Assembly (NCBI GenBank): GCA_021160245.1
Contig: JAGHCW010000154.1
Coordinates: forward strand, 1-58,197
Direction of reading: 5' to 3'
Length of the DNA: 58,197 bases
Source: a bacterium
Lineage (GTDB): Bacteria; B130-G9
The position numbers and the translations under genes were made by a program. This document shows, one piece after another, positions 3 to 54,959 of the stretch. The notes beneath the pieces were generated by a model, which was not told where the DNA came from, ran no database searches, and saw only the letters and a program-made list of their open reading frames with translations. Every line of letters begins with the position of its first letter. The first letter of the stretch is position 1.

Positions 3-677
3 GAGTTGCTTGGGCTGAGGCAGCGTTTTGTGGTTGCGTTGGTCGGCAATCGGCATCTCAAGTGGCGTCGAGGCGTGGCTTTGGCGCGGGATATTTCGGT
101 TCCGATGCGTTTTGAGGCGGAGATCGTGAAGAGGCGGAACGGGCGTGAACGTTTGGAGAAGATTACGTTCGGGAGCGTTTTGGTTGAGTTACCTCGTATT
201 AAGGAGCAATTGCGGTTAGTGAAGGTGCAATTTAAGCGTGGGGGAACGCTCCTTTTGCTGACGAATGTTGAGATGAAGAACACGCTCAAAGATGTCTTAT
301 GGGTAGCACGAGCTTATGTTGCCAGGTGGCGTGTTGAGGAGGTGATACGTTTCATTAAACAGAGCTATAAGTTGAAAGATGTGCGATTACGCAGTTACAA
401 TGGGCTTCGCAATATGACGGCTTTGGTGATGGCTTGCGCGAGTTTCGTGAGCCTGCAACTCGGCCTTCAGGCGAAGCTTCAGATTCTGACGAGGAAGTTG
501 TTTTGCACCTCTCAGCGAGTTGGAGACATCATCAAGAACTTCAGGTATTACGCCATAGCGGACGGACTGAAGGAGACCTTACGCTCCTCAGCGAACCCCT
601 GGCGGGAGCCAAAGCCACCGTCCTCCCACCAGATGACCATCCTCCTGGCAGCACCCACAGGAGGCTCCCTCATGTGA
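3..677 (+). CDS. IS4-family transposase, C-terminal part (5' end outside window)
   Basis: The reading frame is already open at the left edge, so only the last ~224 residues of a DDE transposase are visible. The C-terminal catalytic region carries the IS4-family Y-x2-R-x3-E-x6-K signature, read here as YVARWRVEEVIRFIK (about residues 101-115 of the visible part), which contains the catalytic Glu. The end, with FRYYAIADGLKETL, matches the usual C-terminus of this family, so the 3' end looks intact. The gene ends 77 bp before tRNA-Pro. The codon for the TTG at position 6 is internal, not a start. Whether the element is active, and where its inverted repeats lie, cannot be seen because the upstream half is missing. 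Confidence 0.8.
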   Translation, partial: ELLGLRQRFVVALVGNRHLKWRRGVALARDISVPMRFEAEIVKRRNGRERLEKITFGSVLVELPRIKEQLRLVKVQFKRGGTLLLLTNVEMKNTLKDVLWVARAYVARWRVEEVIRFIKQSYKLKDVRLRSYNGLRNMTALVMACASFVSLQLGLQAKLQILTRKLFCTSQRVGDIIKNFRYYAIADGLKETLRSSANPWREPKPPSSHQMTILLAAPTGGSLM

Positions 678-754
678 ATACGAAAATTCCTCAAGCGGAT
701 CGCTTGACACGGGTGAGCGGGTTTGGCAAGTTTGTGGTTCTTGTAAATGAGCGT

Positions 755-831
<77 letters not shown>

Positions 832-7655: not shown

Positions 7656-7699
7656 AGTTCGGAATGTCCGAATTGGGATGTTAACAGGAGGGAATTGGC

Positions 7700-8773
7700 A
7701 TGACAGAAACCGGGGCCCATGAATCGGTCTCACTTGAGCAGCTTCTTAGAACGATGCTCAAAAGAGGAGGGTCTGATCTTCATATTGTCCCGGGAACGCC
7801 GCCCAGTCTGCGGATTGAGGGTAAGATAGAATCTCTGTCCATGGCGCCGTTTGGAACGCTTGAGTCCGAGCAGATGTGTTTTGGGATCCTGAACGATGAC
7901 CAGAGGGCGAGATTCGACAGCAATAAGTCTATCAACATCAGCTTCGGCATCGCGGGTCTTGCGCGATTCAGAGCATGGCTCTACAGGCAGAAAGGAAGCG
8001 TCTGCGGGGCATTCACCGAGATCATCAAGGACACAATCGCGGCAGAGAAACTATCTCTTCCTTCGACTTTCTTTGAAATGCTCGATAGGAAATCGGGATT
8101 GCTGCTTATCACCGGGCCTCCGGGCTCTGGCAAGACAACCGTTTGGGCGTCGGCGATAGACTTCCTCAATACACGGAAGAGCCTACACATAAGGACGATC
8201 CAGGATCCGATTTGCGTGCTCTTTCAGCACAAGAAGAGTATTGTAACGCAGGTTGAGATCGCCTCCGACTCACCGTCGCTGAAGCAGGCTCTTGCTGACT
8301 GTCTAGAGCACGATTTGGATGTTGTGGGGGTCTCTGACGTCGGCTCTTATGACGCTTTAGTCGGCTGTTTGCAGCTCGTCGAATGCGGCGCGCTGGTGAT
8401 TGCCTCCGCGCAAGCGCCAAGCTGTCAATCCTGCGTCAACATACTCATCGACCACGCGCCTCCAGGCCGCCGGTCGGCTGTGCGCAACTCCCTCGCCCGT
8501 AATCTTGCGGGCATCACTTGCCAACATCTTGTGCCAAAGAGAGACGGCCAGGGGCGTTCTCTGGCGATGGAAATGCTGGTCGGAACTCCCGACGTTCAGC
8601 AGATGATAAGGAATGATACGCCGATGCTGTTTTCTCTCATGCAGAGCGGAACAGACGGAATGCAGACGAAAGACCAGGCGATTCTGAGCCTATACAAGGA
8701 GAATGCAATCGACTACGGGACTGCTTTTGACCTTATGGACGACCTGGGCCCCCTCTTAAAGGCGAACAAATAA
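7700..8773 (+). CDS. PilT/PilU-family ATPase with degenerate catalytic boxes
   Basis: A 357-residue relative of the pilus-retraction ATPases (usual length ~340-380). The N-terminal domain has GGSDLHIVPGTPPSLRIEG, and Walker A GPPGSGKTT (139-147) is intact. The other catalytic elements are changed. The Asp-box reads TIQDPIC (canonical TIEDPIE; Gln168 replaces Glu). The Walker B region reads DVVGVSDVG where PilT has D-V-I-L-V-G-E-M-R, so the catalytic Glu is Asp213 and the Arg is lost. The His-box T-L-H-T is replaced by S-A-Q-A (236-239). It may bind nucleotide but be poorly active, perhaps a PilU-like accessory or a regulatory paralogue. No other type IV pilus gene is present. AGGAGGG lies 7 nt before the ATG. 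Confidence 0.85.
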   Translation: MTETGAHESVSLEQLLRTMLKRGGSDLHIVPGTPPSLRIEGKIESLSMAPFGTLESEQMCFGILNDDQRARFDSNKSINISFGIAGLARFRAWLYRQKGSVCGAFTEIIKDTIAAEKLSLPSTFFEMLDRKSGLLLITGPPGSGKTTVWASAIDFLNTRKSLHIRTIQDPICVLFQHKKSIVTQVEIASDSPSLKQALADCLEHDLDVVGVSDVGSYDALVGCLQLVECGALVIASAQAPSCQSCVNILIDHAPPGRRSAVRNSLARNLAGITCQHLVPKRDGQGRSLAMEMLVGTPDVQQMIRNDTPMLFSLMQSGTDGMQTKDQAILSLYKENAIDYGTAFDLMDDLGPLLKANK

Positions 8774-9729: not shown

Positions 9730-10608
9730 ATGTCACAGGCCAAGCGTGTGCTAGTGGTTGACGACGAAGAATCCGTGCGTGCGGTGCTCTCCAGGTTTCT
9801 GACAAAGCAAGGTATTAGCTTTGAGTGTGCAGATTCGGGGGAGAATGCCATCCAGTGTCTTCAAATGGAAGATTTCGATTTCGTCATAACTGATCTGATG
9901 ATGCCGGATATTGATGGCCTAGAACTCCTCCGGAGAATCAAAACCAAGAACCATAAGATGCCGGTCGCCATAATAACTGGATTCGGGACCTTGGAGATCG
10001 CCGTTGAGGCTTTAAGAAGCGGCGCGGTCGATTTCATCAAGAAACCATTTGACTTCAAACACATCAGCCAACTACTGGCTAAGGTATTCGACCGACAGGA
10101 ACGAGAGACAAGCCAGCAAAAGGCGATTAGCCACATTACTTCGGCAGCTCTCATATTGCCAAATGACATCTCAGTCTTGGAGTCCGCCGGAACAATTGCC
10201 TCAGCGGCGCTTGAGGGCCTGCCTGAATACAACGGCGTTTGCCTCGCCATTATAGAGTCGCTTACCAATGCCATGGAGCATGGGAACCTCGAGATCACTC
10301 ACGAGGAAAAAGACGAGGCAATATCAAATGGCAACTTCCATGAAATCGAAAGGAGCAGGCGAGATAATCCTAAATTGGGTCAACGGAAGATATTCCTGAG
10401 ATTTAGCTTAACCGGTGAGACCTTCACATGTGTAATCCGCGATGAGGGAAACGGATTTGACTGGAAGAATCTCCCCGATCCGAGAACACCGGAGAATATC
10501 TTCAATGCCAGTGGCCGAGGTGTCTTGCTCATTCGCTGCTACATGGATGACGTGAGCTGGAACGAAAAGGGCAACGAAATCACAATGACCAAGAAGCTCG
10601 GAAAATAA
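9730..10608 (+). CDS. Response regulator fused to RsbW-type HATPase domain
   Basis: A 292-residue two-domain signalling protein. Residues 5-120 are a CheY-type receiver with the acidic pair D11/D12, phospho-acceptor D55 (TDLMMPD), Thr83 and Lys105 (KKP). Residues ~155-290 are a HATPase_c_2 domain like the anti-sigma kinases RsbW/SpoIIAB. It has the N-box ESLTNAMEHGN (N180, H184, N186), the G1 box RDEGNGFD (D238, G240) and the G2 box SGRGVLLI (G262, G264). No DNA-binding output is present. This suggests that a phosphorelay controls a partner-switching or kinase-like output, but no STAS antagonist or sigma factor gene is nearby. AGGGG precedes the ATG. Probably monocistronic. Confidence 0.9.
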   Translation: MSQAKRVLVVDDEESVRAVLSRFLTKQGISFECADSGENAIQCLQMEDFDFVITDLMMPDIDGLELLRRIKTKNHKMPVAIITGFGTLEIAVEALRSGAVDFIKKPFDFKHISQLLAKVFDRQERETSQQKAISHITSAALILPNDISVLESAGTIASAALEGLPEYNGVCLAIIESLTNAMEHGNLEITHEEKDEAISNGNFHEIERSRRDNPKLGQRKIFLRFSLTGETFTCVIRDEGNGFDWKNLPDPRTPENIFNASGRGVLLIRCYMDDVSWNEKGNEITMTKKLGK

Positions 10609-12176: not shown

Positions 12177-15100
12177 ATGAAAAAAGGCAGCAATAACAGG
12201 GTAATTGATGGCCGCTACGAGGTCTTGTCGCGCATAGGAGAGGGCGGGTCCAGTGTGGTTTACAAGGCCTTCGACCGAAGTCTAGGTCGGGTTCTTGCCC
12301 TGAAGGAACTCTCGCGCGCGCAGATGACGAGCTCGGGATTCAGCTGGCGATTCAAGCAAGAATTCATGCTCACCGCTCGACTTCGGCACCCTCACGTTGT
12401 CAGTGTCTATGACTTTGGGACGACCTCGGATGGCAGATACTACTTCACAATGGACTTCGTGGAGGGGCGCTCAATCACGGACTGGTGTCGGGGGAAAGAC
12501 ACAAAGACCATAACCCCCTTGCTCCTTCAGGTGGCGATTGCCCTCGGCTATATACACTCACGCCAAGTGGTCCACGGCGACATAAAACCGAGTAACGTCA
12601 TGATCTGCCACAAGCCACCACAGGATAGCGGTCTGCCCCTTTCGAACTCAGAGCTTTATGATCACGGCTTCGCTGTCCTGATGGATTTTGGTCTGAGCAG
12701 CGTTCTCTCACAGCCATCTCTCTGCACCAGCGGAACCGTCGAGTACATGGCCCCAGAGCGGTTCTTGGGCTCATCTCCTGAGCGGCGGTCGGACCTCTAT
12801 TCGGTTGGGGTCCTGTTTTACGAGATTCTATCTGGGAATCTGCCTTTCTCTTCTAATACAATCGAAGGCTTCATAGAGCATCATCTGAAGACTGAGCCTG
12901 TTTCGCTCTCAACCATCGCGCCGGACACGCCACATCAGCTCTCAGAGATTGTGGCGAGCCTACTTGCAAAGCGACCCAGACAGCGCATCGTCTCGGCTGC
13001 CGCGCTCGTAACTCGTCTCTCAGATATGCTCGGAACGCGCGTCCCAAAAGGACTCGCTACGCGCCCCGACGTATGGCCAAAACAACTCTTCGGCCGCGAT
13101 GAGTCGCTCAAAAAATCGCAGAAGCTGATCTTGGGTCGCCTCAGTGGCTCAGCCTACTCAGCGATGTTCAACGAAGAACCCCCCTTCTCCCTGCAGGAGT
13201 ATCACGATCGCCTCCTCGCGGTCCGGGTTCAAGGCGCGAGTGGCTCTGGCAAGACGGCCTTTCTGGATTTGATGAAGTCAGAGCTGCAGCTTGTCGAGCT
13301 CAGCACGATGGTCTCGCCACCAGGTTCACGGGTCCTAGACGCGTCGAGTTTCATCTCCACTACGCTTGCAAGCGTGGGTATTACACATGTAGAGGCAGAA
13401 GGCAAAACGGCTGCTTTGGGCCAAGCGCCCGCGAAGCAAATTAGAATAGCCAGACCGCCGGAGAGCGCTTGGCCGAAATTGCTGAAGGACTTTGCCGACC
13501 AAGTGGTTGCGGCATCTCAAGCTCGTCCGCTTGTTTGGATGCTGGACGACTACGATCTACTGGATGAGAAATGCAAGCAGACACTTGCCGTTGTTGTTCG
13601 AGCAGCGTGTAGGATGCATGCGGGCCGGAGAATAGCAATCGTGCTGACAAGCGCTTTGGGCGCGGGGACGGAGCTCGATGAGCTCTCCGATGCTGTGGAC
13701 ACGGAATCTATCGAAATGCTCCCTCTGGACGAGACTCAGGTCTCGGAGTGGCTTGACGCCGCGTTCATGCCGAACTCGTTTCCGGCCAAAGTCGCCACAG
13801 CAGTCCACAACAAGACCGACGGCTTGCCTGCCATTGTGGGCCTCTGTATCGAGGCGATTGCTGAAAAGGACATGGTCTTCCTACACGACGGGCACTTCGA
13901 GATCAAGATGCAGCGCCTCAACGAGCTATCCGTGCCAAAAAGCGTAGCGCAGGTTTTTGAGTCGAGGATTTCCCGTCTGACTAATGTAGCCAAGTCCGTT
14001 CTTGTGAAGGCCGCTGTTCTAGGAGAGCCATTCTCGCCAGCGCTGATGATAGGACTTGGAGGGACCTCAACCTCGGCTATGCTTGAGGGAGTTGATGAGC
14101 TATCGAAGTTCGGTCTGATTGTGGCATCTGGTGAGAACAAGGAGACTGCGCGTTATTCGCTCCCAAGTCGCGCCGTGGCCGACGCGGTCACCGCAAGGCT
14201 TTCCGCAGAGGAGAATGCCGCAATTCATCGGCTCATTGCGGAGGGTTGCATCGCTCTTGCCGCAAAATTTAAGGTCGATAAGTCTGGGCCGACGGAAGCT
14301 GTCAACGAGGCCGGTCCAGAGGGATTCGCACACCTAAAAGCAATCGGCGCGGTCCATGCGGCGATTGCAGGTTTAAGCGATACTCTAAGCAACGAGTACG
14401 AGGGGGCTTACGCTTTTCTACAGAGTCGATTCAGGCATGATGACGCAAGGGCAATCACAAAGAGCATGATAATTCAGGCGAAGGAGGCTTCAGACGCCGC
14501 TCTTCTTCAAAAACTACATCTCAGGCTTGGACATCTTAATTTTATACTCGGTGATCTCGACGAGTCAATCGCGGCCTTCGAATCGGGGCTCTCCCGCTCA
14601 AGCGAGGCGACCTGCGATCTCACGGGCGAAGTCGAGGCAGTTTGCAGGCTGGGTATCATCTACTGCGGCCGGGGCAAGTGCGAGGAGGCGCGCGAGCTCT
14701 ATATGAACATGGTCAAGCGACTTGAGGCCTCGAGTTGCGACTTGCCGAATGAAGCGACCATTTTCTCCTCAATTGCACGACTCTATACTTTCCTTGGGCA
14801 GAGCTATTTTGGGCAAAACGACCACGATTCGGCGAGGGTCGCCTTCGAGAAAGCTCTGGGCGCAATACCGGCGCCAATTCTTCAATCCCTTGAGACTGAT
14901 GAGGCGCAAAGCGAGAGCGATCTCCCACCTGCCGGCGCCGACTACCTTCCCAGACTGTTTCGGAATCTAGCGATAATTGAGGATACTGCCGACCATTTTC
15001 AGCAGGCCAAAGTGCTTAGCCTAAAGGCGATACGCGCCGACGCGCTTGTGCAGGATATGTCCGAGCATGCCCGAAACCTCGTAACTCATGGCATGATCAG

Positions 15101-17639
15101 CCAACATCTAAGGGAATACGACGAGGCGGAGAGAGCGTACAATGAGGCGCTTGAGTTCTTCGGGAACGAGGGCTTCAAAGAGGGCATTCTGGTCGTTCGG
15201 AATAATCTCGCCTCAATACTCGAGACAAGGGGTCGATTAAAGGCAACAGCGTTTCAGTTTGAGCAGGCCCTTACCACTGCGAAACAGCTGGGAAACAAGT
15301 ACGCGATAGCATGGACACTCCGCAATCTCGGATATATGCTGTTCCAGCAGGGCTGGTTAAACGAGGCGAAGCGCAAGGAGAAGGAGAGTCTCGCCCTCTG
15401 CAAGGAGAATGGATTTCACGAGGTGAGTATTTGGTGTCATCTTGACACGATCGACATCTCGCTAATAGAGGGGGAGATTGGCGCCGCAAAATCAGCGTTG
15501 AGGATGGCGCGGAAATCAGCTCCGAAAATCGATAGCCAGTCCCTTACGCTGAGAATTGACCTCGCCGAATCGAGCATCGCCAATGCCGAGCTCAATTTCG
15601 GACGAGCCAGCGTAATGGCATCCCGGGTCCTTCCGAATTCGCAGCATCTGGAGGACTCCGATATCGCGTGGGCGCACCGCGAGCGCTCAAAGGCGGCATT
15701 GGGATTAGGTGAATTCGACTCGGCGATGCGCGACATCTCGGAATGTCTTAAGATTGCCCACGCCTCACTTGGGATCAGAGATAAGGCGCTTTGTCTTGCG
15801 CTCTCCGCCAGGGCGAAGGAGGCTATGTCCGACGTTCAAGGAGCGACCGATGATGCCCGTTCGGCGATTGACTTGTTCAAGGAGATGGAGGCATTCCTGG
15901 ATGTGGGGCATCTGGCTGAATATCTCTCTTCTCTTCTGCTCAAGCTCGAAAGCCGACAAGAGGCGCTTCTCATGCTTGAGCTCGCTCGAGACCAGTTCGC
16001 CGGGCTGGACATGAGGGACGAGGCTGCGCGGCTGGACGATCGCATCGAGACTATAAGATGGGGGCACGAGGCGCAGGATAGCCGTGGCTCGCTCGCTGCA
16101 AAGGCCTTCTATGAGGTAACACGGCTCTTTGAGTCTCTCGATGATCTTGATGAGCTGCTCAACTGCGTGATGGACGCCATTATTGAGATATTAGGCGCGG
16201 AGCGTGGTTTGATAATGCTCAAGCATCCTGATACAGGGGCTCTTAAAACGCGAGTGGCCCGTAACGTCGATAAGGAGACGATTGCGGATGTGAGGCGGAT
16301 TAGCAAGAGCGTCGTCCAGCGCGTGGTTGATCTCGGCAAGCCAATTGTAACAACAAATGCGCAGAGTGACCCTAGGTTCCAGCAAAGCAAGAGCGTGTCG
16401 CTATTCGACATAAGATCGATTGTCTGCGTGCCATTGGTTATAGGGAAAGAGGTTGCGGGCACGCTCTATGTGGATAGCAGTTTGTCGGCCACCGTATTCA
16501 CAAAGGAGGACCTATACTTGCTCTCGGCGTTCGCAACACAGGCCTCAATGGCAATAGAGAATGCTATGCTGCTTGAGAGGCTGAAGCGGCATAAGGACGT
16601 TCTTGTTGCAGAGAACATTGAGCTGAGAGAGGCCGTTGCGACGAATTTGGTCTTCTGCGATATTGCAGGCGAGAGCTCGGCAATGCGCAATGTATTCAAA
16701 AAGATCGAGCAGGTGGCGGATGCCGACGTCAACGTCCTTGTTAATGGCGAGAGCGGCACAGGAAAGGAATTGGTCGCGAGGGCAATCCACTTCAGCGGAA
16801 AGAGGAAGGACAAGCCCTTCATCAAAGTCAATTGCGCCGCGATTCCAGAGAGCCTCATGGAGAATGAGCTGTTTGGGCACGAGAAGGGCGCTTACACAAG
16901 CGCGGACGCTTTGAAGATAGGCAAGTTTGAGGCTGCGAATGGGGGTTCACTATTTCTTGACGAGATCGGCGATCTTCCGCTTGGTCTCCAAGCCAAGCTG
17001 CTCACAGCGATTGAGAACAAGGAGTTCCAGAGAGTTGGTGGAACGCAGACCATCCATGTTGACGTGAGGATTCTCACGGCGACGAATAAGGACCTCAAAA
17101 AGCTTATTGGACGCAAGGTGTTTAGAAAGGATTTATTTTACAGGATCAACGAGATGCCGATATGGCTTGCCCCACTACGGCAGAGGAAGGAGGACATTCC
17201 GTGTTTGGTGGAGCATTTCATGGGCAAGTACCGGGATGAGTTCAACTCGCCACTCAAAGAGATCAGCGGAGCCGCGTTCTCGCGCCTCATGCAGTACGAT
17301 TGGCCCGGTAACGTGCGGGAGCTTGAGAGCGCGATAAAGCGGGCCTTGATAGAGGTCTCGGAGCCTGTCTTGGGTGAGCATCATCTCGGTTATCTGCCTC
17401 TTCACGCAACCGGCGGTGATGGGACGCCGCGCGAACAGATGACGCACCTCATTGAGTCTCTTTCTGATGACGATGTTGAGCTGAAGGAAATGCTCTCGCT
17501 GCTGGAGGAGGGCATCCTGAGGCAAGCTATTGAGATAAGAGGTTGGAGCATAAGAAAAACTGCCCAACATTTGGGTATATCGAGAAATACTCTTAAAGCG
17601 AAGCTCGCTAGCCACAACATAGAAATATCGGGTGCATGA
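12177..17639 (+). CDS. Giant regulator: Ser/Thr kinase - STAND ATPase - TPR - GAF - sigma-54 AAA+ - Fis HTH
   Basis: An 1820-residue cytoplasmic fusion. Residues 14-285 are a Hanks-type kinase with G-loop [10 protein letters not shown], Lys43, catalytic HGDIKPSN (D135), DFG (170-172) and APE (192-194); all catalytic residues are present. Residues ~303-600 are a STAND/AAA-type ATPase with Walker A GASGSGKT (353-360) and the Walker B-like LDDYDLLD. Residues ~770-1290 are TPR repeats. Residues ~1307-1475 are a GAF domain. Residues ~1500-1740 are a sigma-54 activator AAA+ domain with Walker A GESGTGKE (~1524) and the sigma-54-contacting loop GAYTSA in place of GAFTGA (~1571). Residues ~1778-1815 are a Fis-type HTH. 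It should sense protein partners and small ligands, phosphorylate, and activate sigma-54 promoters. It overlaps the next gene by 8 bp. Confidence 0.93.
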
Positions 17640-30450: not shown

Positions 30451-33400
30451 CTATTCAAATATCCAACTAGCGCTCGCGAGATTGCTTGCGATCTCCATGT
30501 CACAAGAATTGCCGTTGAATGCCGCTACATAGAATGTGTACTCACCCTTGGGCATGAAATCGCCGAACCTGAATCGCACTATCTCCATCGGCCCTATTGA
30601 GGCGCCCGGATCGAGCCTGACGAATACTGGCTGCGGGTCCATCGACCAGCCAGGATAGTACAAACATGTGCCATCCGGTAGAATGACCGCGCCAAGAAGA
30701 TCAACTGGCCATTCCGCTGATTCGTTTTCGATTCCGAACGTCAGAACAAGCTCCTCACCGGCCTTCACGATGGACTTGTCCGTGGCCAGACTGACCTCTA
30801 GCCCTACTCCCCCTGGCCCGCCTTCGGTGCCCTCTCCCAGTAGGGCAACCGTAACAACCGGCTCGGCCGGGTCGTTGCTGTAGATATTCAGTGTGTGCAT
30901 GAACTGGCCAACGGATGGCGGATGGAAACTCAGGTAAACCAACTGCGAGCCGCCGGGCTCAACCGTGAAGGACCAATCGCCGGGCGGGGAATGTTGGGTC
31001 TCATAGAACGTCCCTTCAGGAGTGCCGCTGATCTCAAGCCTGCTGACAAAAAGGTCGCCCGAGCCTACGTTGTTTACGTAAAGCTCGCGGCCCTCGTAGC
31101 CGTTGACTACCATCTGGCCAAAGTCGATAGAATTAACACTGAGGTCGATATCCGGGCCCCCCGTGGGACCCCCACCTGTAACGCCAGTTCCGCTGACCTG
31201 AATGGGCGTGGGGCTGTTAGGATCGTTTGACCGTATCTGGAACATCGTGGAATACGAGCGAGCCTGGTCAGGCGTGAACTCAATCGTCATCGTTATGTAA
31301 GAATCCATCTGAACGAATCTCGGATACCAGGAATAAGGCCGTCCATCCTCGAAAGCCGTCCCAAAACCAGCCTGCGACAGGCCATAGACATAGAGGACAG
31401 CGCCCATGCCTTGAGGGTCCCTGTCGTTATACACCCTGAAGGTCATCTGGTCGGTCTGTCCAATAGCGACAGCGCCAAAATCTAAGTTCATCGGCTCAAC
31501 TCTGATATGAGGCGCTGAGACTGACATCTCCGACGACCCAATCAGATCAATAACCAGAGTCCCCTCATCTGGGTCGTTACTCGTAACGGTTGCGGGGGCG
31601 GCGAAGCTCCCGATGAAAGGCGGCGCAAACGTGACGTCAAAAGTGCTGCTCATTTGCGGACCTATTGTCATGGGGAACATCGCATCGATTGAGAAACCCG
31701 GGACCATTGCATCAACTGCAACGCTGGAGACCTCAAGATCGAGGAGGCCATCGTTGAATACCTCTACCGTAACCGTTCCGCTGTTTCCGGGCATGACCAT
31801 GCCAAAGTCGATCACGCTGTGGCTGAGTCTGATATCCGGCTCATTCGCTGCGTACGTTGTGACGCAATCCGGCTCAAGCGGCGGTCGCTCCACGTTGCCA
31901 GCGTTGTCCGTAGATATGGTATAGAACCTGTAAAGGCCATAGCCATCTCTTGGACGGAACGATATCTGGCCGTACTGACCTGTTCTTGTGATATGCGTCG
32001 TCAAGAAGGGCCCTTCGTTATAGCTATACCACAACGTCGTTCTGTCAATGCCACTCGTATGTTCGACAACACTGAAGTCAATTGTTATCCTCGGGTCCAA
32101 GACTAAGTCCGGTCCAGTGCAGAATGATGAAGGAGGCGACACATCATAGATTATGCTGCAGTCCGGCTCTGTCCTCTCCGACTCAACGTTGCCGGCCCAG
32201 TCGTCTGCTGCGGATATGAAATCGTAGAAACCCTCTCCCTCACGTGCCCAGAAGCTGAATGTTCCCGCGGCTATCTCCATCGAAATACCGGGGTCTTCCC
32301 ATTCGTCCGGTGGCTCAAGATCAGCATAGCGCCGGAAGCGATAGAGCAGTTTAACGCCTCGCACGCCGCAGCCATCCTCGTCAAATCCGACGTCTGGGTC
32401 CTGGGCGCTGAATTGAATCGAGAGAGGCGATCTATTTGCAAATATATCGCTTGAGCAGGTTGAGATGGGGGCTGTCGCGTCATAGAGGAGGAAGCATTCC
32501 TCATCCGTCTTTACTGGCTCGATATTGCCCGCTGTATCCTGGCAGAGCGTATAGAAGCCATAGACTCCCTCGCCGTTGGTTAGTTCGAAATCAAAGGCGC
32601 CGGTGTTTCCAGTCTGCGAGAGGCCCGAGTCCATCGGAGCGCTCGAATTGAATGTGTACCAGAGATAGACAAGCACCGGGTCCGCTCGCTCATCCGCGGC
32701 CACGAACGTGACAGCAACCGCCGTTTCATTCGTAAGGGTTGGGCAGAGGCACTCGGAGACGGGGGCCTGACGGTCCACGATACTCACTGTGTCTGACATG
32801 TCAGGTATCCGCTCACGATGGCCCGCCACATCAATAGCTTGTGTGTAGAACGAGTATTCGCCATCGCCGGCGGTGGGGACGTCAAACGTGAAGGTTCCCT
32901 CGGTCGCCGAGATCACCATGCCGGAGTCCTCAAACTCGTCTCCATTGTAGCACCAATAGAGTCGGACTCGTTCGACACCTGTTACCCCGTCAAACGACTG
33001 ATAGCTCACCTCGATCGAGTCTCCGGTAACATAGTCAGGAGATTCACACCAAGAGCTCGGCGGCTTCGTGTCCAGCAGAGTAATGGAATCTGCCGTTTCA
33101 GGCGCATCTTCTATATTCCCGATGTGGTCCTCTGTGATCGTGTAGAACTCATATCTGCCCTCGACGACTCTCCCTCTCTTATCCACATCAGGATAGCTTA
33201 GGGGAACCCTTAGCCAGACGTCAAAGAGCCCGTGTGCTCCGGAACGGGTAAGGCCGGTGTCCGTCCACTCGCCATCCTCGTATCTGTAGAACAGCTTCAC
33301 AGACTTCAGTCCGTTGTTCAATTCAGTCGCCTGATAGCTGACCTGAATCTGATGTGTAGTCGTTATCTCCGGCGACATACAGAGAGAGGATGGAGCCAAA

Positions 33401-36400
33401 ACGTCAAAATAGACCGAGAGCGAATCCGGAAGAAGCGACGCATTCTCCACGTTGCCCGCGGCGTCAATCGCTACTGTATAGAACTCATAGGTTCCATCGC
33501 CTCGCTTGGGCACAAACCGGAAGACGCCGGAAGGCCCTGAGCATCTCGTCGGCAGAAGTTGCCAATCCTCAAATGAGAGCCGATGCCACAGCTGGACCTC
33601 GACAATTGCGCTGACATTATCTGCGGCCGAGTAGTCAAGATATATCTCGCTATCAGTCAGTCTGTTTAGAGTACACGCTGACTGCGGAGCGGTTTCATCA
33701 TAGATAATCGAGGTCTTGGCCGATGAAGGTCCGAGCTCCGGATTACCCGCCATATCCACGGCGACCGTTGTGAACTCTAAGTTCCCCTCGCCAACTCCCG
33801 ACGCGTCGAAAGCAAACGTATCCTCGTCGCCTGGCATTGAGAGTCCACTGTTCTCCCAATCGCCGCCAGCCAACCTGTAATAAAGCGTTGTCGAAGCAAC
33901 ACCTGTGAACTCGTCGTGAGACCTGAATCTCACCGGAATGGCCGCCTCAGTTATATAGCCGCCATCGTCCGCCCAACAACTGGAGACCGGGCGGCACGTA
34001 TCATAGGACGTCGTGCTGTCCGGCGCATCACTGCCAGTAGGCGCTGCTTCCTGATTGCCGATGTTGTCTCGAGTGACCGTGCGGAAATCATAGACGCCAT
34101 CGCCTCGGTTGACATTGAACTGAATCGTCCCGGATGTGCTCTGTCGAGCCTGACCGCTACATGTCCACGCGCCACCGTTAAATCTAAACCATAGCACCGT
34201 GTGGAAGATACCGTTAACACCCTCGCTAACGAAACTGACCGGAATAGGCATCGCGTCGTCATATTCTGGCGAGATGCAAGACGACTCCGGGACAGCGCCA
34301 TTAAATAAGCACTCGCAGTCGGCGGTAGCCGGCGCTTCCTCAACGTTCCCTACGTAGTCCTCCGCAATTGTGTAGAATTGATATATGCCCTCACCGTCTG
34401 TGGGCACGAAATCAAACACACCTGTCTCCTCGTAGGCTGCCAGCTGAGAGTCTGTGAAATCGAGGGGCCATGACGCGCCTGAACTGAAGCGATACCAGAG
34501 GGCGATTGATTTGACGCCGCTCTTGTTGTCACGCGAGGTGAAAGTCACGGGGATCAGAGGCTCTGTGACCTTGACCGGGCAGTCGCACGTTGACTCTGGA
34601 GCTCTGGGGTCTGGGACCCATTCATCAAAGACGAAGAGCTCGTGCCCAACCGTTATGTAAACAAAGCCGTAGGAATCCAAAGAGGGACTCGAATCGACCG
34701 GAATCCCAAAGTCATACGACCAAAGCAGCGTGCCGTTAGGGTTGAGACAGTAGAAATAGCCATCATCGCTCCCGAAATAGACCCGCCCAGCCTGGTCAAC
34801 GACCGGCGAGGAGACTATCGGTCCGTCGGTATCGAATTGCCAGTTGGCCGTTTGGGTAACCGGATCAACCGAATATAGGGTTCCGTCCATCGATGGCACA
34901 TATACCGTACCGGCAGTCGGGTGAACCGCTGGGGACCCCACAATCGGTCCGCCCGTGGCGAACGTCCAAATAGCTGGGCCGGACGTTGAACGTCCGTGAA
35001 GGACACCCTCCTCTGTGCCGCAGTAGAGCTGATTCTCGTCATGGCTCAAAGTTACCGAAACGGTCGTAATAGCGCCGGGCACTGAGTATGCCCATCTCTG
35101 GCTGAAATCTGGGCGGAAGCAATGCGCAGTATATGTCGCAGCGCCGCCGTACGTGAAATAGATGTTACCATCGGAATCTATGGCCGGCGAGCCCACGACT
35201 GGATAGCCGTAAGCGCCCTGCATGGAAAAGCCCATACCACCTGTGTCTGCGGCAACTGGATAAACAGCGCCATCTTCACACGGGACATAAATCCATCCGT
35301 CATCGCCAACAGTTGGCAAAGCAGTGATCTCCATCGAGTTACCAGTCAGAGGAAGCGGATTTACTACCCAATCTGGATTCGGCAGACCGTCCGGGGTAAT
35401 TGACATCAACGAGCCATCTTCAAGACTCATGATGACGTTGCCTAGATGATCAATGACAGGGCCGAGGCTCGTCGGTATCCCGGATGGGTATGCCCAGTCG
35501 AGCCGTCCGTTAGGCAGAACTGCATAGAGCGTCCCATCTGTGGCCGTAACAAAGAGCCTGGCCGTCTGGTCGATGGCAACCGTGTCGTTGAGATCATACT
35601 CACCGAAAGACCTTGCCCACTCAACCTTATCGGTCAGCGGCCCATCAGCGTCCATGTAGCCCCTGTGGCCTCTGTCGCATCCTTGCATCGGCCAGAGCTC
35701 GCTACAAACCGCAACCCAATAATATGAACCGATGTCGCCGGGATTATGGAGCGCAATTTGAACGTAATATGTGCCACTCTCGTTGCACATGAAGCTAACG
35801 CTCGCGTTGTCACCTACGCCGCCCTGCGTGTCGCTGTCCACCAGCGTGAGGTCCCCGCAACTACCGGAATAAACGAAGACGTCAGTATCGGTAATTACAT
35901 CGTCAATACCGTATGTGAATACGCGGTACCTAATGCCCTCAAGGGCCTCAAATTGAAGCCAATCCTCATCCCCATGAGGCGCGAGCGTGTGATACTGGCC
36001 GACACAATCCGCTTCAATTGGGATTGCGTCACTGCAGACGTCATCGTCCTCATAATCATCTACCTCATACGCGACTACGCTTATGTCGTAGTTATGCGCA
36101 ATAGCGACCGGATAGATACCGTCCCAGCCACCATGTGTGACCATAAGGAAATAGTCATCGTCGGCAGGGCACTCCCACCAAAGCTCCGCGCCCCCACCAT
36201 TACCCTGCGCGCCATCCAAGTATGATGCTCCAGGGCAGGTCCCCGAGTAAACGCCGATATCGGTATCCGCATCCAGCGAGAGGTGATGTGTCCTGAAATA
36301 ATAGTACCAAGAGCCATGCAATGTGGGCATACTGAACCAATCCTGATCAGGTCCCAGGCGATCATAAATGAGGCTATGGTCCTCGTATTGTGGGAAGCCT

Positions 36401-38928
36401 GTGCCCGGATCCAAAATTGGAATTATCCGCGCCTCGCCACAGTTGTTATCGTCCTCGAATTGGTCATAGACGTAAACACCGTCAAAATAGCCATTGTCGC
36501 CGGGGGTCGCGATAGATGGATATTGAGCGATCGTCCGACCCTCGTCATCAACGCCGTAGTAATAGCCGAAATAACGCCCACGTGGCAAAGCGATGTTGCC
36601 TGTTCTCCAGGTGTCGCCCCCAGCTGAGTTCAGCCAGAAATCGTTGTCGAAGGGATTACTCAGGTCATCTGTCAGATAAGCATACCTGAGAATTGGGTCC
36701 GCGAGCTCCTCATCGACGAAATCGACTTGTAGCGTAAAAGAGTTGCCCTCTTGAACCTGAACGTATTCTGTCCCGTTCATAAGTTCCGGGAGCCCCTGAA
36801 CCCTTAATGAGGCGCCAATGTCATGGCCAAACCAGCTGATCTCGAATTCGTCTGGCAAAGCTCCCCCACCAACGAGTCGTTCGGGGAAGGAATAAGAAGC
36901 CCAGACGTTGCCATCAAGGATGGATGACGATGGATCAGTCGCACTGGGGGTGAATGAATCCCAGTAAGTATAGCTATTCCCCGCGTCATCGTTATATATG
37001 AAGACGCGAGAGACGCCATCGTCTGTGCCGAACATCACATTCTCAGTAAATGGATAAAAGGCGTAACCTGGCGCCCGCGCGCCCAGGTAGTTTACGCTCA
37101 AGCAGCGAACATCGTCCGAGCGCAGTCCGGACGTACCGCTCTGATAATTCGTCCAGGTTAGGGTGTTGCTGTTGAAGCGGGAAACCCCGTTATCCGTCGC
37201 CACCCAAATAATATCGTCCCCAATCGATCCCACGTCAGTTACGTTATTTGAGACGAGGCCATCGGCCATCGTGTATTGCACGGCGCCACTTGTCCCTCTA
37301 TACAAACCCTCCCCGGTGCTGCCCAGCCAGATATCGCCCTGGCCGTCAATCGTTATCGAGGTCAACTCACTGCCCAGTAGAAACGGCCCGAATGGAGGAG
37401 CTCCATCGAAACTGAAGCCGCCGTTGTTGGTCACCACCCATATAATGCCGGTTGCTTCATCAATATAAATATCATTGATATGGTCGTCTGGTATGTCAGG
37501 AGTAGTGTAAACAGTCATTGCGCCAGTGCCGACATCAAGACCGACCAAACCAGCCTCGGTTCCGATCCAGGTAGTGGCTCCATAGGGTCTAACGACGGAA
37601 GTAGTCGGGCTGGGGAGGCCATCCGCCTCGAAATAGTTCGACCAATTCACCCCATCGAACCAGCTAACGCCGCCGAGGGCTCCGAACCACGCTTCTTCGT
37701 AACTCCCGTTGGGGTCGCCATAAACCGAGGTTATGTCATTCGAGATGAGCTGGTCATCATACTCGAAGTCCCCAACAAGATAACCAGATGTGCCGAAATA
37801 GCGGGTCCAAATCCTATTGACAGTACCAAAGTAAACCTTGGTGTCGAACGGAATCATGGTCGCCCCTGTAGCCTCAATATCGTTCACAACTTGTGTGATT
37901 TCGCCAATCACCGAAATGGTGCTTCCTGAAGAACCTGTCAACGTCCAATAGGCCGCGCCAGCGTCGGTCCCAATCCAGAGGTTGCTCTCATCGTCAAACT
38001 CAAGAGATAGCACGCGGTCGGAAGGAAGACCGGCCCTGCCATCGATTGAGTTAAACCTAAGGCCGAGCGCGCTCATATCGCCCGCCGGGAAATGGGCAAT
38101 TGTGCCCGCACTCCCACCTGGCCCGTCGTCAGCCCACAAGCCCACTAGTCCATAGTCTTCCATTCCACAGAAGACTATTTCCCGCAGACCCGGCTCAGTT
38201 GCGCGAGCAACTGCATTGACGTTGTTACTGGGCAATTCACTGTTATTTGTATCCCAGTACTCAAATTGAATATCCATTGCCATCGGGATAGTTCGAATAA
38301 CTCCCTCTCCGACACTGCCCATCCATATTCTTCTATCCATCTCGCCACTGCCTTCGATGAAAATCGAGACTATATTCGGGTTGTCCGATGGAAGGCCATC
38401 AGTGCTGTCCCACGTATCCATAGTATAGTCATCGAACATGCCATAATAGATATAGGCAGGCCCCTGATCCGTGCCTATGAATATGACGTCTTCACCAAAC
38501 GAACCATTCAAAGCCTGAACATTGTCGGAGGGTAGGTCTGAATCGGCCGCTGTGAAGGAATAGCGGATTATACCTGTGTCAGGCTCAAATCCATGAAGAC
38601 CATATCCGTCCGTGCCAAGCCACTTTATATCGTAAAACTCCATATTCAGACGATCATAATGTCTAGACTTCGCAAGCGCCTGAATGTTATTCGTCGGAAG
38701 CCCATCTTCGGTCGTCCACTTCTCAAATGAAGCGGTAGTATCCGTGATATTGTAAACTCGCAACAACCCGCTGTTGGAAGCCCCCGCCCACAGCTCCTCG
38801 TCATCTAGAAGGAGCGTCGTAATGTCATCACCATTTACGAAATGCTCCCAGAACAATCCGATAGCCGTCGCGGCGAAGAGACTGGCAATCACCGAGACCA
38901 ATACTATCAACCGCCACCTTGATACCAT
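30451..38928 (-). CDS. Giant exported protein A (2825 aa): Reg_prop propeller, 2 PPC, PQQ propeller, 9 Ig-like, 3 ASH, C-terminal module
   Basis: A hydrophobic N-terminal segment (residues ~6-26) serves as signal or anchor. Residues ~35-690 are Reg_prop blades (W-[IV]-G-[TS] and LPS-[ND]-N motifs). Residues ~705-820 are an Ig-like spacer. Residues ~821-945 and ~955-1076 are two PPC domains (D-x-F-E-D-D-x-x-C; G-D-E-D-W). Residues ~1078-1435 are a PQQ-type propeller opening with WPMQGCDRGH and blades ending S-P-x-x-[DH]. Residues ~1438-2361 are nine Ig-like modules. Residues 2362-2709 are three ASH domains (D-F-G-x-[MV]). Residues 2710-2825 are the shared C-terminal module. No enzyme, kinase or beta-barrel was seen. 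AGGAGG lies 8 nt before the ATG. It is the last gene of the giant tandem, 120 bp after B. Confidence 0.88.
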   Translation of the reverse strand: MVSRWRLIVLVSVIASLFAATAIGLFWEHFVNGDDITTLLLDDEELWAGASNSGLLRVYNITDTTASFEKWTTEDGLPTNNIQALAKSRHYDRLNMEFYDIKWLGTDGYGLHGFEPDTGIIRYSFTAADSDLPSDNVQALNGSFGEDVIFIGTDQGPAYIYYGMFDDYTMDTWDSTDGLPSDNPNIVSIFIEGSGEMDRRIWMGSVGEGVIRTIPMAMDIQFEYWDTNNSELPSNNVNAVARATEPGLREIVFCGMEDYGLVGLWADDGPGGSAGTIAHFPAGDMSALGLRFNSIDGRAGLPSDRVLSLEFDDESNLWIGTDAGAAYWTLTGSSGSTISVIGEITQVVNDIEATGATMIPFDTKVYFGTVNRIWTRYFGTSGYLVGDFEYDDQLISNDITSVYGDPNGSYEEAWFGALGGVSWFDGVNWSNYFEADGLPSPTTSVVRPYGATTWIGTEAGLVGLDVGTGAMTVYTTPDIPDDHINDIYIDEATGIIWVVTNNGGFSFDGAPPFGPFLLGSELTSITIDGQGDIWLGSTGEGLYRGTSGAVQYTMADGLVSNNVTDVGSIGDDIIWVATDNGVSRFNSNTLTWTNYQSGTSGLRSDDVRCLSVNYLGARAPGYAFYPFTENVMFGTDDGVSRVFIYNDDAGNSYTYWDSFTPSATDPSSSILDGNVWASYSFPERLVGGGALPDEFEISWFGHDIGASLRVQGLPELMNGTEYVQVQEGNSFTLQVDFVDEELADPILRYAYLTDDLSNPFDNDFWLNSAGGDTWRTGNIALPRGRYFGYYYGVDDEGRTIAQYPSIATPGDNGYFDGVYVYDQFEDDNNCGEARIIPILDPGTGFPQYEDHSLIYDRLGPDQDWFSMPTLHGSWYYYFRTHHLSLDADTDIGVYSGTCPGASYLDGAQGNGGGAELWWECPADDDYFLMVTHGGWDGIYPVAIAHNYDISVVAYEVDDYEDDDVCSDAIPIEADCVGQYHTLAPHGDEDWLQFEALEGIRYRVFTYGIDDVITDTDVFVYSGSCGDLTLVDSDTQGGVGDNASVSFMCNESGTYYVQIALHNPGDIGSYYWVAVCSELWPMQGCDRGHRGYMDADGPLTDKVEWARSFGEYDLNDTVAIDQTARLFVTATDGTLYAVLPNGRLDWAYPSGIPTSLGPVIDHLGNVIMSLEDGSLMSITPDGLPNPDWVVNPLPLTGNSMEITALPTVGDDGWIYVPCEDGAVYPVAADTGGMGFSMQGAYGYPVVGSPAIDSDGNIYFTYGGAATYTAHCFRPDFSQRWAYSVPGAITTVSVTLSHDENQLYCGTEEGVLHGRSTSGPAIWTFATGGPIVGSPAVHPTAGTVYVPSMDGTLYSVDPVTQTANWQFDTDGPIVSSPVVDQAGRVYFGSDDGYFYCLNPNGTLLWSYDFGIPVDSSPSLDSYGFVYITVGHELFVFDEWVPDPRAPESTCDCPVKVTEPLIPVTFTSRDNKSGVKSIALWYRFSSGASWPLDFTDSQLAAYEETGVFDFVPTDGEGIYQFYTIAEDYVGNVEEAPATADCECLFNGAVPESSCISPEYDDAMPIPVSFVSEGVNGIFHTVLWFRFNGGAWTCSGQARQSTSGTIQFNVNRGDGVYDFRTVTRDNIGNQEAAPTGSDAPDSTTSYDTCRPVSSCWADDGGYITEAAIPVRFRSHDEFTGVASTTLYYRLAGGDWENSGLSMPGDEDTFAFDASGVGEGNLEFTTVAVDMAGNPELGPSSAKTSIIYDETAPQSACTLNRLTDSEIYLDYSAADNVSAIVEVQLWHRLSFEDWQLLPTRCSGPSGVFRFVPKRGDGTYEFYTVAIDAAGNVENASLLPDSLSVYFDVLAPSSLCMSPEITTTHQIQVSYQATELNNGLKSVKLFYRYEDGEWTDTGLTRSGAHGLFDVWLRVPLSYPDVDKRGRVVEGRYEFYTITEDHIGNIEDAPETADSITLLDTKPPSSWCESPDYVTGDSIEVSYQSFDGVTGVERVRLYWCYNGDEFEDSGMVISATEGTFTFDVPTAGDGEYSFYTQAIDVAGHRERIPDMSDTVSIVDRQAPVSECLCPTLTNETAVAVTFVAADERADPVLVYLWYTFNSSAPMDSGLSQTGNTGAFDFELTNGEGVYGFYTLCQDTAGNIEPVKTDEECFLLYDATAPISTCSSDIFANRSPLSIQFSAQDPDVGFDEDGCGVRGVKLLYRFRRYADLEPPDEWEDPGISMEIAAGTFSFWAREGEGFYDFISAADDWAGNVESERTEPDCSIIYDVSPPSSFCTGPDLVLDPRITIDFSVVEHTSGIDRTTLWYSYNEGPFLTTHITRTGQYGQISFRPRDGYGLYRFYTISTDNAGNVERPPLEPDCVTTYAANEPDIRLSHSVIDFGMVMPGNSGTVTVEVFNDGLLDLEVSSVAVDAMVPGFSIDAMFPMTIGPQMSSTFDVTFAPPFIGSFAAPATVTSNDPDEGTLVIDLIGSSEMSVSAPHIRVEPMNLDFGAVAIGQTDQMTFRVYNDRDPQGMGAVLYVYGLSQAGFGTAFEDGRPYSWYPRFVQMDSYITMTIEFTPDQARSYSTMFQIRSNDPNSPTPIQVSGTGVTGGGPTGGPDIDLSVNSIDFGQMVVNGYEGRELYVNNVGSGDLFVSRLEISGTPEGTFYETQHSPPGDWSFTVEPGGSQLVYLSFHPPSVGQFMHTLNIYSNDPAEPVVTVALLGEGTEGGPGGVGLEVSLATDKSIVKAGEELVLTFGIENESAEWPVDLLGAVILPDGTCLYYPGWSMDPQPVFVRLDPGASIGPMEIVRFRFGDFMPKGEYTFYVAAFNGNSCDMEIASNLASASWIFE
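31848..34611 (-). repeat. Nine Ig-like modules in giant protein A (protein-level repeat)
   Basis: Units of about 95-110 codons. Each begins P-x-S-x-C-x-x-P, has a central [LV]-W-[YF]-[RS]-[YF]-N-x-G segment, and ends with G-x-Y-x-F-Y-T-x-[AS]-x-D-x-A-G-N-x-E followed by a late Cys and Y-D. Copies are strongly diverged, not recent DNA duplications. Confidence 0.8.
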
Positions 38929-39017
38929 ATCGAGAACCTCCTAATTCAGCAGTTAGAAGACATCTTAATTACTATGACGATAGTACTCTAACCAGAGTGT
39001 TGTTAATGCTATATAGA

Positions 39018-39047
39018 ATTATATCCTTGAGCTTGGCTCCTCGCCAA
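39018..39047 (-). promoter_or_regulatory. Possible internal promoter between giant genes B and A
   Basis: On the minus strand TTGGCG (39047-39042), an 18-bp spacer and a perfect TATAAT (39023-39018). It lies just downstream of the B stop codon and 90 bp before the A start. This B-A gap is twice as long as the other gaps in the tandem. Confidence 0.35.
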
Positions 39048-39048
39048 T

Positions 39049-42000
39049 CTAGTAACTGCTCCCAACATCGAAATTGCAGGTCGATATCGGACCCATGAAA
39101 TCAAGGCTGCCGGGCGCCGCAAGAGCCGCATAGAAAGTGTAGGAGCCCGGTGCAATGCCCATACCCGGCGATATCCGCATGAGCTCGAAATCAACAAGCC
39201 TAAAACCTTCATCAAGAGTTAGAACGAATCCTGAAAGCTCTTGCGACCAATCCGGCCAAAAATAGAGACTACCAAATGGGTCTTGCACCGCGATATAGGC
39301 CTCTACATCTATGCTAGGGCCTTTATTCTCAACAGAAACATCAATCACGATCTCATCGTCGTCGTGCAACCTCGACGCGGCCTGCGCCTCGATGGAGATC
39401 GTTGGTGGCTCCACGAGAACGCCATAGCCAACGACTGGCACTTCCACCTTCGATGGCTGTCCACCTTTCACGTTAACCCACCATATCTCTAAAACTGCGC
39501 TAATCCTCCCCAACTCAGTAGGTTGGAAAATGATCTGAGCCGTGCTGTAATCCTCGCCCCCAATGGTAACGGGGAATGAACTTATGCATTCAAAGCTCTG
39601 AATGAGCGTGCTCTGTGATGCCACTACTACGTCCGTAACACGAAGGTCAGCACCACCCACATTCAATAGCTGCAGAGTGCTTGCGCTCACTTGGTTAAGA
39701 AGAACCTCACCGAAAGAGATGGATTCCGGGAAAACCCTCAATTCAGGTATGCCCGGAACATAGGAATATGTGGTGTCCGCCTCATCCGGAGCATCCTCCA
39801 CATTTCCGGCCTTATCAGTTCCGATGGAGTAGAATGAATACTCTCCTCTTCCATCTGTCGGGGAGAATCGGAATGAGTAACTCCAAGGCAGATTGGTTGT
39901 GGCGGAAGTAGCTTCCTGCCATTCACCGCCCGCATAGCTATACCAAAGCGCAACGTCACCAATGCCAGCTACCTCATCATCTACGGTGAAGTAAACAAAC
40001 ATCAGCTCACCGTCAACCTTCACCTCGCCGGTACATTCCGTCTCCGGCGGCGTCGCGTCATATATGCACGGAACCAGCGTCGAAGGCGTTGACTGAACAT
40101 TGCCTGAGTGATCCGTAGCGATACAGATGAAGCCATAGCGGCCCTCGCCTCGGTCAAGATGATAGGTGAAGGATGTCTCAGTCTCGTCCGCTGTAAGGCC
40201 TGTATCAAAGAAGTTCTCTAGTTCAAACTGACAATAAAGGTGGAGATTCGCTACGCCTGAACCCTCGTCTGTGCCCCAGCAGGAAAGCGTCGCGATCGTC
40301 GGCTCCGTCACAAAATATGGAGCAGAGACACCGGAACCCGGAGGGATAGTATCATATATGGTCGAGCATTCTGCCTCGTTCTTCATAATTTCACTACGGC
40401 CAGCCATGTCAATACTGTGAGTAAAGAACTCAAACACCCCGTCGCCCTCTGGCTTGAATGTAAGGACGCCCTGAGTCCCAGACCCAAAAACACCACTATC
40501 GGCCCACTTCTTAGCGCCTTCATCGTCCTTGGCGCCATCCTTGTTATACCAAAGGTAGGTGTTCATGAATCCCGTGTCATCGTGGGCCGTGAAATGAACG
40601 GCAACCGATTCACCAGATGTATACTCATCGCAGGTGCAGGTCGAGCTCGGCGCGAGAATATCCATATATGCTGTGCATTTGGCGGCAAGCGGCTCCTGAT
40701 TGCCAGAATAGTCCGAACTGACGCTTGCAAACTCGTAAACGCCCATTCCCTGGTCGCGATCGAATACGAATCGGCCACTGCCGTCGGCTGAGTGCCAGCC
40801 TATATCTCGCCAAGCGCCACCGTTAAAACGATAATAGATAACTGTGGTCTGAACGCCGCTAACATCATCGGTAGCCTCAAATGAAACGACAAAGGGCATA
40901 GAGGTCAAGAACATGACCGGCGCGCATTCGAACTCATCTTCGTCAAGGCCAGAAATCACCGTCCCATCTTTGGGAATGCAGACGAAACAAGATGATTGTG
41001 GATTGGTTACGTCATATCGCCACGTGGCCTTCGGAGGTGTCCAGAAGCCGGGCGTTGTTTCCGTATTCCCCACGATATCATGAGCTATTGTGTAGAATTC
41101 ATAGATGCCCTCTCCAAACGTCTCATCAAAGACGAACGTCCCAGTCCAGGGAATCGTCGCCGTCGAGACCCTTGTCCAGGACCCTGCAGAATAACCAATC
41201 CCTGGTGAATATCGATAGTATAGGTCCACATTCGTAACGGTTGATACGGCGTCCTGCGCTGTGAAGCTGATATTAATCGGAGTTGCTGTCGTAGCATACG
41301 GGCAAGAGCAGGAACTCGTCGGCGCCGAGGCGTCGTAGATTATCTCCATAAAGGATGTGGACTGCTCAACGTTGCCTGCAACGTCGGTGGCGATCGCCAT
41401 TACCTTATATTCGCCCTCGCCGCCAGAAAATGGCAATAAGAACTGCCCGGTCGCCTGCGCGCTCGAAAGCCCAGTAGATAGCCACGTAACTTGACCCGGA
41501 GGCATCCAGAATAACTCAACATTAGATACTCCCGATCCATTCTGGCCGTCGGTTGCCTCGTAAGATATCACAACTGTTGATTCGCTACTCATACCCGAAG
41601 CAAATATAAGCGTTGAGGGCAACTGGGTGTCCCTGAACATCGTGAAGTCCGGCACATCGTGCCCGGCCTCCATATTGCCCGCCATATCGCTCATCTGCGA
41701 ATAAAACTCGTAAGCACCGTCGCCGTCGACTGGTGTGAATGAAATAACACCAAACTCGCCCTGATCATTAAGCATCGGGCTCATCCACGCGCCGGCTTCA
41801 TATCTGACGAATAGCACAACATCATCGACGCCTGAGAAATCATCCCAAGCGGTGAACTCAATTGGGACATCCCCGCCTGTGGAATAAGCGGGTCCGTTGC
41901 ACATAGAAGTCCCTGCATTCCGGTCGAGTATAATGGTGCATTCGCCAAGATCATCCCTCTGAGCGCCAGTGGCGTTATCCCACGCCTCAGTCCGGAATAA

Positions 42001-47151: not shown

Positions 47152-47209
47152 ACCGATTAACCTCCGTCACTTATTCGAGTTGTTCTCATTAGGCATACTC
47201 GTAATTATC

Positions 47210-54904: not shown

Positions 54905-54910
54905 CACAAC

Positions 54911-54916
54911 CCCTCC
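54911..54916 (-). promoter_or_regulatory. Ribosome-binding site GGAGGG deciding the start of giant gene C
   Basis: It sits 6 nt before ATG 54904 and inside the longer open frame that begins at 54925, showing that the shorter start is used. Confidence 0.7.
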
Positions 54917-54959
54917 AACGCACATTTGGTTTTGGGCGAAATTATCTCGAACTTATCCA

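Follow-up and report, generated by a model that had tools for sequence, protein, structure and literature searches.

What can a PilT-family protein do once it has lost residues that published work ties to catalysis, if selection still keeps it in a genome that also encodes intact PilTs? This question is raised by a gene in a 58,197-nucleotide stretch of bacterial DNA (contig JAGHCW010000154.1), which was analysed as a whole and is here called the window. With a paralogue devoid of catalytic residues kept next to intact PilTs, evolution instead of mutagenesis would have set the structural role of PilT apart from its motor role, and the lineage in question indicates which residues can vanish from a PilT-like protein that selection retains. 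In Vibrio cholerae, PilT with a mutated Walker Lys or Glu supports PilU-dependent retraction, whereas a pilT deletion does not (PMC6821130, PMC6762196), and why PilU requires PilT but not PilT ATPase activity was left open by these two papers of 2019. We propose, as an evenly balanced judgement, that the window gene encodes a natural PilT-family pseudo-ATPase acting by contact on type IV pilus retraction.

The reading frame of the gene is open throughout, and no inner stop is found in any of the three orthologue frames, i.e. those of the window and of the genomes G001 and G003. The original prediction of a PilT-like ATPase with a perfect Walker A motif was borne out, the motif reading GPPGSGKT and the family profile PF00437 (T2SSE / PilT-VirB11-like superfamily) matching at 51.3 bits, above its gathering cut-off of 24.9. 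The PilT/PilU profile TIGR01420 gives 268.2 bits over residues 12-344, which is under the curated cut-off of 319.1, even though the window protein is clearly homologous all the same. Against PDB sequences, phmmer yields 23 matches with E no higher than 1e-5, led by PilT of G. sulfurreducens (2.4e-72) and G. metallireducens (2.4e-71); five PilT chains score 208-247 bits, P. aeruginosa PilU 190 and P. aeruginosa PilT 187. The features of the gene and other features of the window are collected in Table 1.

Table 1. Position of the gene, its motifs and other features of the window (changes are relative to PilT)
Feature	Position	Strand	Remarks
CDS of PilT-family pseudo-ATPase, 357 aa	7700..8773	+	PF00437 and TIGR01420 matches; orthologues in G003 (68% identity) and G001 (66%)
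Shine-Dalgarno-like AGGAGG	7686..7691	+	8 nt 5' of the ATG; by sequence inspection
N-terminal-domain RFR (R89, R91 = GmPilT R81, R83)	7964..7972	+	kept in 3/3 orthologues
Arg-finger place, GmPilT 98	8015..8017	+	T/K/K; Arg in 71/71 and 167/168 others
Walker A GPPGSGKT, residues 139-146	8114..8137	+	Lys to Arg in the G001 orthologue
Asp box TIQDPIC, residues 166-172	8195..8215	+	Mg-contacting Glu to Cys (Ser in G001 and G003)
Walker B stretch DVVGVSDVGS, residues 207-216	8318..8347	+	Gly to Ser and Glu to Asp in 3/3; Arg to G/D/D
His box SAQA, residues 236-239	8405..8416	+	His to Gln in 3/3
CQSC right behind His box	8423..8434	+	in 3/3 orthologues; Cys pair at these columns in 0/168 others (first Cys in 7, second in 0)
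Transposase fragment (DDE_Tnp_1)	6..831		adjoins tRNA-Pro at 755..831
Response regulator receiver domain fused to HATPase_c_2	9730..10608
1820-aa protein	12177..17639		protein kinase domain, TPRs, GAF, sigma-54 activator AAA+, Fis-type HTH
Four very long frames (2825, 2700, 2571 and 1064 aa)	30454..58154	-	last one near contig end; beta-propeller and HYDIN-like Ig domains in the frame that was scanned

Residue numbers are those of G. metallireducens PilT4 (GmPilT) unless stated otherwise, and residue triplets are ordered window/G001/G003. The original prediction had also described the Asp, Walker B and His boxes as degraded, with the Walker B Glu turned into Asp and its Arg gone. This holds, as the window protein reads TIQDPIC for TIEDPIE, DVVGVSDVGS for DPDVVLIGEMRD and SAQA for TLHT, and the catalytic losses are common to all three orthologues. 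Concerning the Asp box, the letters were given correctly, but the Q in place of E160 occurs in the window protein only, TIEDPIS being the reading in the other two; the loss common to the three is that of the second Glu, the Mg-contacting E164 (C/S/S), which is kept in all of the 168 other PilT- and PilB-like sequences compared. The catalytic E205 (E204 in P. aeruginosa) is D/D/D and is Glu in 168/168 others, whereas the His of the His box, H230 (Q/Q/Q), is kept in 166 of them. Aligning the three orthologues to GmPilT further reveals changes at Walker B G204 (S/S/S), at R207, the Arg after Walker B (G/D/D), and at R195 (E/E/E), T221 (C/S/S), R240 (I/N/N) and R98, which we read from the alignment as the counterpart of the PilB finger R286. 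The P-loop K137 is K/R/K and is Lys in all 168 others. Roles in Mg contact, water activation, gamma-phosphate contact and inter-subunit contact are described for these residues (PMC5424180, PMC6858323), and twitching is lost in P. aeruginosa E204A and H229A (PMC6858323).

The loss pattern in the window protein exceeds chance. Across 71 other PilT-family proteins, 41 positions show an invariance of 95% or more; 17 of them are lost by all three orthologues, 23 are kept by all three and one (K137) is split. When other groups were held out as controls, the invariant positions lost numbered 13/58 in the L006 clade, 5/42 in L071 (a single sequence from G002), 1/42 in the L004 clade and 0/42 in the L005 clade; L004, L005 and L006 are the PilT paralogues of the window's own genome. 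The L006 clade is thus also divergent, its losses including E160 and D161 of the Asp box with E164, E205 and H230 intact. The alignment behind these counts held 74 of 92 retained sequences and GmPilT; the 18 sequences dropped were 17 low-scoring PilB/GspE-like frames and a 274-aa piece from L037, the most altered among the others, whose inclusion would reduce some of the 71/71 counts. In a wider, non-random set of 171 sequences (168 others, the L037 piece among them, and the three orthologues), taken from fetched matches among those listed in a search of 60 genomes, from PilB-like frames next to these, from named contigs and from the genome of the window, neither the Mg-contacting nor the Walker B Glu is lost by any of the 168. 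A changed His-box His occurs elsewhere in that set as Arg in L037 (G006:C32), along with R98K and R207N, and as Asn in L136 (G031:C51); both retain the Walker B Glu. The replaced sites of the three orthologues were identical among them at 9/17, compared with 206/312 for the remaining sites (p 0.30), and a set of replacement residues fixed as a new active site was not found by this comparison.

Selection still acts on the gene. Between G001 and G003 its dN/dS is 0.097, compared with 0.052 for L005, 0.055 for L004 and 0.083 for L006, which are paralogues with catalytic residues. Between genera, where synonymous change in the pseudo-ATPase gene is saturated, dN is 0.24-0.25 for this gene, 0.07 for L005, 0.08 for L004 and 0.15 for L006. 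The low dN/dS together with the higher dN indicates a protein that is constrained yet changes faster than its paralogues, and with its intact frame the gene encodes no obvious relic.

In a profile search of 386 genomes, including the window's own, in which at most five first-look candidates were scored per genome, three genomes carried an orthologue (G000, the window's genome, G001 and G003), at 746-803 bits, with the next match at 312; a search of 60 genomes scored all candidates. All three carriers belong to one family and two genera. The orthologue was not found in G002, a genome of a third genus that is 86% complete and for which all candidates were scored, the best match, at 37%, being to a canonical PilT. 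G002 does have counterparts of L004, L005 and L006; its pili do without the pseudo-ATPase. A long-branch PilT paralogue, L071 (G002:C374), was, among the fetched sequences, seen only in the genus lacking the pseudo-ATPase; those catalytic residues that were checked are intact in it, while GmPilT R81 and F82 are replaced by Y and G. A scan of genome contigs with two exact peptides returned 76 stretches, 11 of which encode relatives, namely one orthologue (68%), on QMNL01000332.1, which is identical to the G003 contig, and ten PilTs at 30-34% in records labelled Cloacimonadota, Cloacimonetes or Ca. Zophobacter. In the tree, whose bootstrap had not settled, the pseudo-ATPase clade sits on a branch of 1.9 without a firm place among the canonical PilTs. 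A topology joining it to the L005 clade was not rejected (p-AU 0.281) and one joining it to the L004 clade was (p-AU 0.0095), both being weak results given the long branches.

The check suggested with the original prediction, whether the genome has a canonical PilT/PilB set, gave a positive answer: intact PilTs, PilB-, PilC- and PilM-like proteins and secretins are encoded. The seven PF00437 matches comprise three long PilB/GspE-like proteins, the PilT paralogues L004 and L005, L006 and the window protein, and are accompanied by three PilM_2 matches, eight T2SSF matches in four frames and four secretins. L005 is nearest to the PilT4 chains of G. sulfurreducens and G. metallireducens, and L004 to Thermus PilT2 (5fl3). 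On contig C165, L006 (G000:C165, L052:7921-9168, strand -) is accompanied by genes for a PilB-like protein with an MshEN domain and for a PilC-like protein, and by a secretin frame. Its counterparts are found in all four family genomes examined; its Asp box is altered to IIGSPIE, and the Mg Glu, Walker B Glu and His-box His are kept.

In the window, the pseudo-ATPase gene has a hydantoinase B gene, divergently oriented, on one side and a DUF502 gene on the other. The orthologues of G001 and G003 are each followed by a PMT_2-like gene, the two copies being 81% identical, and the G001 orthologue has a radical SAM gene upstream of it. The window locus has no neighbouring gene in common with those of G001 and G003, the G003 contig being only 3118 bases long. 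Comparing translated frames of window positions 1-25000 with the whole G001 contig returned the gene, its antisense frames and one distant ABC-type match (27%) elsewhere; the same comparison with the G003 contig returned nothing besides the gene. In contrast, the control loci retain their neighbours in G001 and G003, PfkB and a phosphorylase at L005 and RecX with an 888-aa frame behind it at L004. An operon partner was therefore set aside, as the absence of a shared neighbour points to none.

Such unrelated neighbours at the window and G001/G003 loci would suit a protein that has left the pilus and, with no part in retraction, serves as a sensor or scaffold linked to nucleotides or redox state. 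So would the stem branch and the raised dN, as well as the CQSC pair beside the former His box. We regard this as unlikely, even though it is the alternative that survives best. The orphan place says little, since no pilus genes stand among the scanned neighbours of L004 and L005, and the 23 of 41 family-wide invariant positions that are kept include several at ring interfaces. The cysteines as a whole are poorly conserved, the three orthologues having 9, 7 and 5 with four columns in common, and for that reason a redox or zinc site at CQSC was set aside as well.

As to catalysis, the original prediction held that hydrolysis is probably weak and that selection had kept nucleotide binding. The former goes in the right direction, hydrolysis being probably lost, as the residues that published work ties to it are gone in all three orthologues; on these residues, the window protein very probably lacks ATP hydrolysis at a PilT-like rate. 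The latter is not supported: the P-loop Lys is Arg in G001, and none of the three orthologues has the Mg Glu, the His-box His or one of the Arg fingers. The regulatory hexamer subunit or sensor that the original prediction put forward may nevertheless be right. Judged by these positions, kept nucleotide binding is not a common property of the orthologues. A slow ATPase that hydrolyses with unusual residues, such as the Walker B Asp for Glu, is improbable, notwithstanding the P-loop Lys in two of the three orthologues, an acid at the Walker B position in all three and a Lys at the Arg-finger place in two, because the Mg Glu, Walker B Gly, next Arg and His-box His are lost jointly, G001 is without the P-loop Lys and none of the 168 other sequences has lost either Glu.

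The fold, which selection was said to have kept, fared better than nucleotide binding. An AlphaFold model of the window protein, built with 12 sequences, is of moderate confidence (pLDDT 71.4, pTM 0.61), and Foldseek finds PilT4 chains as its top PDB matches (E 1.7e-34, TM about 0.57, rmsd about 18). How the two domains are oriented may account for the low TM and high rmsd, and we infer from the model that the PilT fold is kept. Of the residues named for the GmPilT ring interfaces, R81, D161, E178, E220, L269, G277 and R296 are kept in 3/3, as is an acid at 32 and 243, while T133, R195, T221, H230 and R240 are lost, and with them the ATP-dependent H230-T221 contact. Since the interface residues named in PMC6858323 are part kept and part lost, ring formation is plausible. 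The same source names T133, R195 and T221 for both interface types, open and closed. Among the closed-interface residues, H230 and R240 are lost and the acid at D32, P271 (2/3) and G277 are kept; among the open-interface residues, E178, L269 and R296 are kept and Q59 and F259 are not. A bias towards the open interface is weakened by this mixed pattern. R124, whose counterpart changed to Asp weakens PilC binding in P. aeruginosa (PMC6858323), is S/S/L, a place that is variable in other PilTs too.

These interfaces bear on whether dead subunits could enter rings of intact PilT and stop them. Overproduced Walker-Lys-mutant PilT is dominant negative in V. cholerae (PMC6762196), and the N-terminal RFR arginines are kept. 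Nevertheless such poisoning is hardly probable here: both sides of the shared active site have lost residues, R98 and T221 among them, the window protein is only 36% and 31% identical to the other PilTs of its genome, and V. cholerae PilT and PilU, which are more than 40% identical (PMC13142100), make separate homohexamers (PMC6821130). That the gene is a decaying remnant released from selection is very improbable. In favour of it, the gene is not found in one family genus (G002), one orthologue has lost a further key residue, the P-loop Lys, and dN/dS is roughly double the values for L004 and L005, albeit close to the L006 value; a dN/dS of 0.097, three frames without inner stop and a Shine-Dalgarno-like site speak against decay.

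The reading we prefer remains a pseudo-ATPase working by contact on retraction, which is suggested by the known usefulness of dead V. cholerae PilT together with a natural change in strain MO10 discussed below. The protein would fold as a PilT subunit, probably assemble into a ring of its own without hydrolysis, and act through contacts with the platform protein PilC, with an intact PilT paralogue encoded elsewhere in the genome, or with both. It could be an adaptor ring that holds or recruits the working motor, or a brake that occupies the motor's place. Counting against this reading are the lack of a conserved neighbour where L004 and L005 have theirs, the missing orthologue in G002, replaced sites that are no more fixed than the remainder, the lost interface residues and R124, the stronger defects of the V. 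cholerae Walker B Glu mutant, the moderate confidence of the model and a sample of three sequences. More specifically, we suggest only tentatively, and with clear doubt, that a dedicated dead PilT ring is a passive adaptor between the pilus platform and an intact paralogue. If this were true, pilus dynamics would be set by binding and shape alone, and the protein would be a natural version of the laboratory dead PilT.

A survey of titles and opening abstract lines in the open-licence literature found, among the matches listed, no paper on a natural PilT pseudo-ATPase, and the four PilTs of G. sulfurreducens are described as retaining all four motifs (PMC5065972). With G. metallireducens PilT4 (PDB 6ojx) the window protein shares the predicted fold, the P-loop, the RFR arginines and the C-terminal GMQT region, whereas it is without the Mg Glu, the Walker B Glu, the next Arg, one Arg finger and the His-box His. 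It resembles PilU in being a PilT paralogue kept beside PilT and in its structure match (9n32), but PilU drives retraction by its ATPase when PilT is dead (PMC6821130), while the ATPase motifs are gone here. The laboratory-made dead PilTs of V. cholerae, K136A and E204A, carry changes in the same motifs, the Walker B Glu mutant having stronger defects than the Walker A mutant (PMC6762196); those are single engineered changes, whereas many sites are lost together in two genera here. Finally, PilT R206S of V. cholerae MO10 is a natural change of the Arg next to Walker B, the very place that is G/D/D in the three orthologues, and goes along with hyperpiliation (PMC6762196). That case concerns a single change in one strain's pilT, whereas the window gene is a separate paralogue beside intact PilTs.
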